Position numbers and translations under genes: made by a program. Shown here piece after piece: positions 1-32,014 of a DNA stretch of 32,014 nt (its first letter is position 1; every line of letters begins with the position of its first letter). The stretch is taken from NCBI GenBank assembly GCA_023511455.1, contig JAIMBJ010000035.1, forward strand, positions 1 to 32,014, read 5' to 3'. Origin of the DNA: Bacillota bacterium. Lineage in GTDB: Bacteria; Armatimonadota; HRBIN16. The notes below the pieces were generated by a model. It did no database searches. It had not been told where the DNA came from and saw only the letters and a program-made list of their open reading frames with translations.

Positions 1-12
1 TCGGCGGTGTGT

Positions 13-39
13 GGAAAGAGTGTATCATGTTCTCTTTCC
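13..39. repeat. Inverted repeat (hairpin) at the window edge
   Basis: GGAAAGAG at 13-20 and CTCTTTCC at 32-39 form a perfect 8-bp stem with an 11-base loop. No T-tract follows, so it is not a standard intrinsic terminator in either direction. It may belong to whatever gene lies left of the window, as an operator or transcript end. Nothing else is recognisable in bases 1-55. Confidence 0.4.
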
Positions 40-55
40 CACGTCTATACTAACA

Positions 56-254: not shown

Positions 255-2063
255 ATGCAACACGCGCCGCAAGACCATATCCGGAACTTCTGTATCATCG
301 CGCACATCGACCACGGAAAGTCCACCCTCGCCGACCGCATTCTGGAGTTTACGGGTGCGATTGACCCCCGCCAGATGCAGGAGCAGGTGCTGGACCAGAT
401 GGACCTGGAGCGCGAGCGGGGCATCACGATTAAGATGACCGCTGTGCGCCTGACCTACCGCGCGCGCGATGGGCAGGAGTACGAACTGAACCTGATCGAC
501 ACGCCGGGGCATGTGGACTTCACCTATGAGGTCTCTCGCAGCCTCGCGGCGTGTGAGGGTGCGCTGCTGGTAGTGGATGCCTCGCAAGGCGTGGAGGCGC
601 AAACCATCGCCAACGTCAACCTGGCGATGAACAATCATCTCGAAATCATCCCCGTCATCAACAAAATCGACCTGCCCGCCGCCGACCCCGAGCGCGTCAA
701 GGAAGAGATAGAGAATATCCTCATGCTGGACGCCTCGGAAGCCATCCTCGCCAGCGCGAAGGAGGGAATCGGCACGGAAGAGATTCTGGAAGCGGTGGTG
801 CGTAAAATCCCGCCGCCGAAAGGGGACTCCGGTGCTCCCTTGCGTGCACTCATCTTCGACTCGCACTTCGACCCTTACCTGGGCGTGGTGGTGTATATCC
901 GCGTGGTGGATGGGGTGGTGCGCCCGGGAATGCGTATCCGCTTTATGTCTACCGGGCGCGAGCTCGAGGTAACCAGTGTGGGCTTCTTCACGCCGCGCCT
1001 GCAGGAGGGCGATGAACTGCGCACCGGAGAGGTCGGCTACCTGACGGCAGGCATTAAAACCGTCGGCGATACGCGCGTGGGCGATACCATCACCGACGCC
1101 GAACGCCCGGCCGCAGAACCCCTGCCCGGCTACAAACCGGTCAAACCCATGGTTTTCTGCGGGCTTTATCCGGTAGACGGCGAGGAGTTCTCGGAGCTGC
1201 GCGACGCGCTGATGAAACTGCAGTTGAACGACGCGGCGCTGGTGTTCGAACCGGAGACCTCGGCTGCACTCGGTTTCGGGTTTCGCTGTGGCTTTCTGGG
1301 GTTGCTGCACATGGACATCGTGCAGGAGCGACTGGAGCGCGAGTTCGGGCTGTCGCTCATCGCCACGGCTCCCAGCGTGGTATACCGAATCACCACCACC
1401 AAAGGCGAAGTGATTCTGCTGGACAACCCGGCTCACTGGCCCCCGGCAACTACCATCGCCACGGTGGAAGAGCCTTACATCCGCGCCACTATTTTCGTGC
1501 CCAGCGACTACGTGGGACCGATGATGGAGCTGGCGATTGACCGGCGTGGCGAGTTCGTGAAAATGGAGTACCCCACGCCCAACCGTGTGCTGCTCACCTA
1601 CGACCTGCCGCTGGCGGAAATCCTGCTGGACTTCTATGACCAGCTCAAAAGCCGCTCTAAAGGGTATGCCTCGTTCGACTACGAGCCGATTGGCTACCGA
1701 CCGTCCGATTTGGTGAAGCTGGACATCCTGATTAACGGCGACCCCGTGGATGCACTCAGCTTCATCACCCATCGGGAGCGGGCGTATGCACGCGGACGTG
1801 CCCTCGTGGAGAGGCTGCGGCAGGTGGTTCCCCGCCAGCAGTTCGAAGTGCGCATTCAGGCAGCCATCGGCAGCAAGGTCATCGCCGCCGAGCGCATCCC
1901 GCCCTTCCGCAAGAACGTGCTGGCGAAATGTTACGGTGGGGATGTGACGCGCAAGCGCAAGCTGCTGGAGAAACAGAAGGAAGGCAAGAAGCGCATGAAG
2001 CAGCTGGGCAACGTGGAGATACCGCAGGAGGCTTTCCTCAGCGTGCTGAAGGTGGCTGAGTAG
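255..2063 (+). CDS. lepA: Elongation factor 4 (LepA) GTPase
   Basis: A 602-residue translational GTPase that acts on the ribosome, where LepA/EF4 is associated with back-translocation and with initiation or assembly quality. The G1 motif AHIDHGKST lies at residues 16-24. The switch region ERERGITI, the G3 motif DTPGH and the G4 motif NKID follow. The C-terminal domain typical of LepA ends the protein, with its Lys/Arg-rich stretch around [10 protein letters not shown]. Length and motif order are those of normal LepA. ATG 255 was chosen because AGGAGG (244-249) lies five bases upstream; a GTG at 240 is in frame, but it lies upstream of that ribosome site. The gene is monocistronic with its own promoter, and the next gene has a separate promoter. 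Confidence 0.98.
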
Positions 2064-23369: not shown

Positions 23370-23374
23370 GGTTG

Positions 23375-23520
23375 CCCTCACCCCTGTCCCCTCTCCCACG
23401 CTGTGGGAGAGGGGCGTATTGCGCCCTCACCCCGTCCCCTCTCCCACGCTGTGGGAGAGGGGCGTATTGCGCCCTCACCCCTGTCCCCTCTCCCACGCTG
23501 TGGGAGAGGGGTGCTGTTTG
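23375..23520. repeat. Three tandem palindromic repeats (REP-like) between fliH and fliI
   Basis: Three units of 48-49 bases start at 23375, 23424 and 23472. Each holds a perfect hairpin of CCCCTCTCCCAC, loop GCT, and GTGGGAGAGGGG, at 23388-23414, 23436-23462 and 23485-23511. The units are nearly identical; the second lacks one base and the third diverges after the hairpin. Similar CCCTCTCCC...GGGAGAGGG palindromes are common as interspersed repeats in many bacteria. There are no unique spacers, so this is not a CRISPR. On the minus-strand transcript the hairpins would sit upstream of fliI. Bases 23521-23604 hold no gene. Confidence 0.95.
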
Positions 23521-23604
23521 CCCTCTTCCCCTGCAGGGACAAAGGGTACGGCAGGCGGGTCCTCCAAGGCCCGGCGGAAGCGTCGCCCTCTCTGCGGCGA
23601 TACC

Positions 23605-31719: not shown

Positions 31720-31939
31720 CGACCAGCTGAGGGTGTTCGATAAATCGCCTCGCGGCTTGTTCCAGCGACTGAAGCGACACTGTCCTGTCATGCTGAGCGC
31801 AAGCAAAGCATCTCAGCACCTCAGAAGAGATTCTTCGCTTCGCTCAGAATGACAGATGATGTCGCTTTGTGCCGCCAACTCTGCGAGACTATTGCAATTG
31901 CCTGACCCCTACCAGTTCTCGAACACCCTCCGACCAGCT
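31720..31939. repeat. 9-bp target site duplication flanking the MITE
   Basis: CGACCAGCT occurs at 31720-31728 directly before the left terminal repeat, and again at 31931-31939 directly after the right one. This is the footprint of a transposition event. The empty site can be restored by deleting one copy plus the element. Confidence 0.9.
31729..31930 (+). mobile_element. MITE-like non-autonomous transposable element, complete copy
   Basis: A 202-bp element without a gene. The terminal inverted repeats are GAGGGTGTTCGA (31729-31740) and TCGAACACCCTC (31919-31930), perfect over 12 bp. A 9-bp target duplication flanks it. Inside, TGTCATGCTGAGCG... (31786-31814) and ...CGCTCAGAATGACA (31827-31854) form an imperfect hairpin of about 28 bp. 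From memory, this core resembles a TGTCATTCTGAGCGAAGCGA-type interspersed repeat seen in many bacterial genomes. It must be moved by a transposase encoded elsewhere. The right two thirds recur at 56-191 with about 96% identity. Bases 31940-32014 beyond it hold nothing recognisable. Confidence 0.85.
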
Positions 31940-32014
31940 GTTGTTACCAATGGCGAGTCACATTTAATTCCCAGTTTGAAATGTCACATATCCAAACGCT
32001 TCGATGGTATCACA

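Follow-up and report, generated by a model that had tools for sequence, protein, structure and literature searches.

Insertion at a fixed distance upstream of vegetative promoters has been described for TnGBS, ISLre2 (p-MULT 3) and part of the ISKra4 group (p-MULT 4), all of which use Mutator-type transposases (PMC3942029). TnGBS inserts 15-17 bp upstream of the -35 box; 13 insertion sequences (IS) of the ISKra4 group have promoters on either side and two nearly identical ends; and the authors, who called promoter targeting an unusual property, proposed contact with the initiation complex and drew a comparison with yeast Ty3, whose integration is directed to promoters via transcription initiation factors (PMC3942029). 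Within the IS903 group of the IS5 family, MITEAba12 (ISAba12) makes 9-bp duplications with a preference for AT-rich DNA only, the paper giving no target motif (PMC6382973).

The 202-bp MITE presented here is very probably a non-autonomous member of an IS5-family, IS903-like transposon family that targets sigma70-type promoters, 1 base inside the -35 box. It resembles TnGBS, ISLre2 and the ISKra4 elements in DDE transposition at a fixed distance upstream of the -35 box of vegetative sigma-factor promoters, and the ISKra4 group also in its near-identical ends and in having promoters on either side. It differs from all of them in having an IS5-type transposase, theirs being of the Mutator superfamily, and in inserting at 8-11 bp with a cut inside the -35 box rather than 15-17 bp upstream; TnGBS, furthermore, are large conjugative elements. 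To judge from sequence, then, the element would work like the promoter-targeting Mutator elements without being a member of that family. Ty3 is a eukaryotic retrotransposon, and the likeness to it is an analogy of function only. With ISAba12 and MITEAba12 the family shares an IS length of about 1 kb, a single DDE transposase gene, 9-bp duplications and, probably, mobilisation of MITEs by a resident IS; their ends are GGCTTTGTTG..., unlike GAGGGTGTTCGA here, and the transposase here lies far below the IS5_2 cut-off. Our search of the open-access literature (subscription papers and ISfinder lay outside it) found no IS5-type example of promoter targeting, and the only precedent found for promoter-directed insertion was the Mutator-type TnGBS/ISLre2/ISKra4 group.

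The MITE, its copies and its parent IS

The window, the whole stretch of DNA analysed (32,014 bp), is the entire contig 35 of a 3.85-Mb genome in 73 contigs (G000), which was compared with nine other genomes of the genus (G001-G009). The features at its right end are:

31720-31728, no strand: left target-site duplication CGACCAGCT, 9 bp, from the sequence
31729-31740, plus strand: left terminal inverted repeat GAGGGTGTTCGA, 12 bp, from the sequence and a genome pattern search
31729-31930, no strand: complete MITE, 202 bp, without a gene inside; both-ended copies on C10, C39, C6 and C1
31784-31855, no strand: internal palindromic core CTGTCATGCTGAGCGCAAGC...GCTTCGCTCAGAATGACAG, from folding and partial matches (about query 56-141); many sites without MITE ends
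31919-31930, minus strand: right terminal inverted repeat TCGAACACCCTC, from the sequence and a genome pattern search
31931-31939, no strand: right target-site duplication CGACCAGCT, its last base doubling as the first T of the IS end alongside
31939-32014, no strand: truncated end (TGTTGTTACCAATGG...) of another multi-copy IS, standing in place of the MITE's former neighbour; the contig ends here, with a 77-mer common to about 10 contig ends

A preliminary description of this DNA had proposed a complete MITE with 12-bp perfect terminal inverted repeats, a 9-bp direct duplication on both sides and an internal hairpin, and the genome bears it out: repeats and duplications are perfect, the single-strand fold has z = -5.5 (0 of 200 shuffles equally good), and several copies elsewhere have both ends. 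Searches of the genome revealed four further near-full-length copies with both ends (C10:56317-56518, C39:3376-3577, C6:15351-15552 and C1:53905-54106) in unrelated flanks; the description had held that flanking CGACCAGCT shared by other copies, or the lack of any copy with the same two ends, would point to chance, and CGACCAGCT is absent from all four of these both-ended copies. The 12-mer GAGGGTGTTCGA occurs exactly 28 times in the genome, against 0 for the reversed control pattern; some of these ends are solitary, no partner end being detected. Short, non-coding, multi-copy and bounded by terminal repeats and target duplications, the element has the make-up of a MITE, and its ends are common to a resident autonomous element, the GAGGGTGTCCGA/GAGGGTGTTCGA IS on C19 described below. 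An Rfam search of the window gave no match. The window copy lies directly upstream of the start of a glycosyl hydrolase family 76 type gene (PF03663; 30579-31709, minus strand); its flanking gene is present in six relatives, but the orthologous region upstream of that gene lacks conservation in the nine further genomes, and no empty site for the window copy was found among them.

Between identical ends lie two or more unrelated bodies: the window copy has the TCATNCTGAGCG palindrome, other copies one of the form CCCCTCTCC...GGAGAGGGG. A 186-bp version of the second body is present in about 100 copies in G005, where exact ends number 213. The TCATNCTGAGCG...CGCTCAGAATGACA core is also found at tens of genomic places without the MITE ends, and inside a second short unit with different ends, TAGGAGTTACGCAGTTG and CAACTGCGTAACTCCTA (L009, G000:C6:48989-49146; L010, G000:C2:255228-255383). 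One core is therefore carried by two different end sets, and the earlier proposal that it can travel inside a transposable unit is supported. Elsewhere in the window, at 23374-23530, a 49-bp repeat that contains a CCCCTCTCCCACGCTGTGGGAGAGGGG palindrome stands three times in tandem, resembling the body of the second MITE type.

A resident transposase gene with matching ends, as the preliminary description had suggested seeking, was found in a 1038-bp IS (C19:61766-62803), which is bounded by GAGGGTGTCCGA and GAGGGTGTTCGA and flanked by the 11-bp duplication AGCAGGGGACA. The gene, of DDE_Tnp_1 type (C19:61869-62405), scores 27.3 bits against PF01609 (cut-off 23), as an IS5-family catalytic domain should; alignment places the catalytic residues at D124, D204 and E262, and D124, D204 and E262-QVFGSV-K269 (E-x6-K) are invariant in three copies. 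Its Pfam and NCBIfam matches are to DDE_Tnp_1 and IS5/IS4 types, with no Mutator-type family among them; the nearest NCBIfam model is NF033579 (transpos_IS5_2; E 6e-12), for which it scores 45.6 bits against a curated cut-off of 140. A tblastn comparison with plasmids gave no match. Homologues of 57-61% identity occur in G003, G005 and a fourth species, G009 (public record CALJAP010000170.1), where duplication ACACTATTG is followed by TGACTTTT (L083). In G003 and G005 they belong to full IS copies, 1024 bp long in the first and 989 bp or more in the second, almost all of which are flanked by perfect duplications of 9 or 10 bp adjoining TGAC.

IS of the family are 0.99-1.04 kb long. Their duplications are those of the IS903 group, 9 bp in most insertions and 10-12 in some; their ends are GAGGGTGTTCGA, not the IS903-type GGCTTTGTTGcataaA. 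A wider search of the phylum, covering 291 genomes, gave IS5_2 matches in no more than 5; the two with the highest scores, which have IS903-type ends (GGCGTTGTTGCATAAA/GGGCTTTGTTGCATAA), could not be tied to promoters. Because true IS5_2 members of the phylum have IS903-type ends, the parent family appears to be an IS903-like branch of the IS5 family with other ends, its exact subgroup only loosely placed by a score so far below the IS5_2 cut-off. From the shared ends, shared target and shared arrays we infer that the parent transposase mobilises the MITE.

Position of insertions at predicted sigma70-type promoters

End-to-TTGAC distances were collected over the whole genus with a pattern allowing any gap of 0-30 bp; reversed controls gave 0 matches. 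Among the 106 matches listed, TTGAC starts 8 bp outside the element end in 79, 9 bp in 18, 10 bp in 4, 11 bp in 2 and 7 bp in 1, with 2 elsewhere (103/106 at 8-11 bp), and the base preceding it is C in 63% of cases. Where an insertion has a duplication as well as TTGAC (35 cases), this distance invariably equals the duplication length minus 1. Whether 9, 10, 11 or 12 bp long, the duplication has the first T of TTGAC as its last base, and the promoter-side cut is therefore fixed 1 base inside the -35 box while the other floats. Insertion at a fixed distance upstream of a vegetative -35 box, as in TnGBS, ISLre2 and ISKra4, thus occurs here at 8-11 bp. This fixed position at the -35 box is the target specificity of the element, which the preliminary description had not seen, which falls beyond the coordinates it gave, and which is the more important property.

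Promoters were predicted from the E. coli consensus. Of 46 unique insertions that have a duplication, 38 show a -35/-10 pair scoring at least 9/12 at exactly the anchored position; any one of the 21 other shifts examined gives such a pair in 0-2 of the 46. Examples are:

Insertion with duplication GCGTGTAGGGT, then TGACA-N18-TATAAT
Insertion with duplication GGCAACCCCT, then TGACA-N17-TATTAT
Insertion with duplication AAAAACGCT, then TGACA-N18-TATACT

About 4-8 of the 46 have no convincing promoter on either side (L177, L187, L193 and the window copy among them), and at L172 and L223 TTGAC is present and a -10 box absent. No promoter is readable at the window copy because another IS starts at its right duplication, which runs straight into the TGTTGTTACCAATGG... 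end, the right flank belonging to that IS from about 31938; either the adjoining IS displaced the promoter or the insertion was off target. This multi-copy IS has ends TGTTGTTACCAATGGCGAGTCACATTTAATTCCC and TGTGGTTTCCAATTTGAAATGTCC and is seen at about 10 contig ends in the genome and at L262 (G007:C148:6600-7917) and L261; the part of its reading frame that was tested had no Pfam match.

Either end of the element can face the promoter in G005, one about twice as often as the other. A symmetric palindromic target (GTCAA N7 TTGAC, both sides) was considered and rejected: the non-promoter side has no TTGAC in complete insertions, the copy on C39 excepted. That copy has promoters on both sides and no matching duplication, and may thus be a product of recombination between copies. 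The idea that the elements bring an outward promoter of their own was likewise rejected, the promoters being host sequence that is present in empty sites.

Such empty sites were found for a second copy, at the left end of the window:

56-191, no strand: right two thirds of the second MITE copy; the left third is at C10:67-133, another element (1-55) having inserted between
192-202, no strand: target-site duplication of the second copy, GGGCGACTGAT, 11 bp; the identical 11 bp precede the left end on C10
202-231, plus strand: predicted lepA promoter, -35 TTGACT 202-207, spacer 18, -10 TACAAT 226-231; empty sites in G007, G003 and G002
255-500, plus strand: start of a lepA-like GTPase gene, presumably driven by the predicted promoter; named from its translated start by inspection

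The first T of the lepA -35 box is the last base of the GGGCGACTGAT duplication (promoter sequence TTGACTTTTCGCCCCTTTCTCGGATACAAT). In G005 the same promoter carries a different MITE with a 9-bp duplication, GGCGTGCAT; it is element-free in G007, G003 and G002 and, more distantly, in G001, G004, G006 and G009, with a single related upstream sequence. Thus ...AGCGTGCATTGAC in G002 stands against GGCGTGCAT-MITE-GGCGTGCAT-TGAC in G005, and ...GGGCAACTGATTGAC in G007 against GGGCGACTGAT-MITE-GGGCGACTGAT-TGAC in G000: the lepA promoter was struck independently in two species. The TTGCCTTCC.GAACGCTTCGGGGTACAAT promoter also has insertions in both G000 (AGTCGGTCA) and G005 (AGCCTGTTG). Tandem arrays have one repeated duplication between units (CGTGTCCGT, CTAGCAACC and CTTGAATCTCT, three times each), the pattern expected if a promoter that outlasts one insertion receives the next element at an unchanged distance.

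Two further rearrangements were noted in G005. Neighbouring MITE+MITE or MITE+IS pairs appear to have transposed as a composite with a new outer duplication (L171, L203 and L108; at L171, AGGTTTACC-MITE-CGTGTCCGT-MITE-AGGTTTACC), and at L183 and L087 the flank pairs are swapped (AGAGGCTAT/AGGTGCCTT), probably because copies recombined and so rearranged the chromosome. The element at window 1-55 is itself multi-copy, with ends AGTCTATGTTGTTTGTCAAGGG... and ...ACGTCTATACTAACA, and also lies at contig ends of C2, C14, C17, C30, C31, C49, C50 and C56; in 9 of the 9 copies seen it occupies the same nucleotide of a palindromic core (TCATGCTGA^GAGCG or close variants), its insertions including the core of the lepA MITE. 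An IS110-type identity for it was unsupported, no IS110-type transposase being found in the assembly.

Probable promoter recognition and competing explanations

Whether the promoter or merely a DNA word is recognised was judged from -10 boxes (5/6 or better, spacer 16-19). The most serious competitor, which we consider unlikely, is that the transposase reads only the word TTGAC, with C preferred before it, and that insertions at TTGACs in genes were lost by selection. TTGAC is indeed the strongest common feature, with the preceding C at its 63%, and junctions with TTGAC and no -10 box exist (L172 and L223). On the other side, a -10 box follows 31 of 51 junction TTGACs, compared with 11 of 206 TTGACs elsewhere (Fisher 1.3e-17) and, in a small control, 3 of 16 in intergenic DNA (p = 0.004). 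The 11 insertions without TTGAC mostly keep a -10 box at the right spacing: one of at least 5/6 stands at the anchored position in 7, as against 0-1 at shifts of 2 or more, the -35 variants at insertions being as poor as TTGTGT, TTGCCT, TTGATT, ATGACA and CTGACA. Because the -10 box is enriched after junction TTGACs and is in register where the -35 box is poor, the data favour the view that the promoter or its complex is recognised, and not TTGAC by itself, though the intergenic control is small.

It is very improbable that insertion was random and that the survivors are those just upstream of promoters, where they do least harm. Most sites are promoter-sparing, as this would have it, but selection cannot fix a distance to the base, and 79 of the 106 matches listed are at exactly 8 bp; the promoter-side cut, moreover, is constant while duplication length varies from 9 to 12. 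The base-exact offset refutes selection as sole cause, though selection may add to targeting. Slightly less credible again is the proposal that GAGGGTGTTCGA serves a regulon as an operator or activator site, set upstream of promoters by its function, and is not the end of a transposon. The constant distance to the -35 box and the solitary ends in G000 would suit it, but for complete copies it is refuted by the perfect duplications, by the empty lepA sites, by the transposase gene that a pair of these ends encloses, and by the presence of about 100 nearly identical copies in one sister genome with none in others; solitary ends could have been co-opted. Finally, that 31720-31939 is a generic chance palindrome with coincidental repeats has practically no probability left, being refuted by the recurrence of the same two ends in different flanks and by the 28 exact ends against 0 control matches.

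Proposed mechanism and its meaning

The ends, duplications, positions, consensus promoters, empty sites and arrays were observed, and the following scheme of promoter recognition is built on them. The DDE transposase of the IS, presumably active, would work in trans on whatever DNA lies between GAGGGTGTTCGA ends, and unrelated palindromic bodies would therefore be carried between the same ends. The transposition complex would select sigma70-type promoters, probably through promoter-bound RNA polymerase or promoter shape rather than TTGAC alone, and would cut one strand between the first two bases of the -35 box (T^TGACA) and the other 9 bp further upstream, sometimes 10, 11 or 12. Such staggered cuts would yield the 9-12 bp duplication, and the complete -35/-10 promoter would be left undamaged at 8-11 bp from the element end; a site spared in this way could be struck again, and tandem arrays could form. 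We see an even chance that, independently of the Mutator-type elements, an IS5-type transposase came to dock on the RNA polymerase bound at promoters, at sigma region 4 over the -35 box, and to measure its cuts from there: the first would always fall 1 bp inside the -35 box, the second anywhere from 9 to 12 bp upstream, promoters then becoming re-usable, harmless and repeatedly filled landing sites.

Earlier work on promoter-directed DDE transposition in bacteria presented it as something unusual, a trait of two Mutator-type lineages. An IS5-type case, with a different distance and a cut inside the -35 box, would mean that promoter targeting arose at least twice, and would offer a second system in which to study the way a transposase locates RNA polymerase. 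The sites of insertion would constitute a natural map of vegetative promoters, more than 70 of them marked to the base in one genome, and promoter-sparing insertion may be a simple reason why about 100 MITE copies can accumulate without killing the host.
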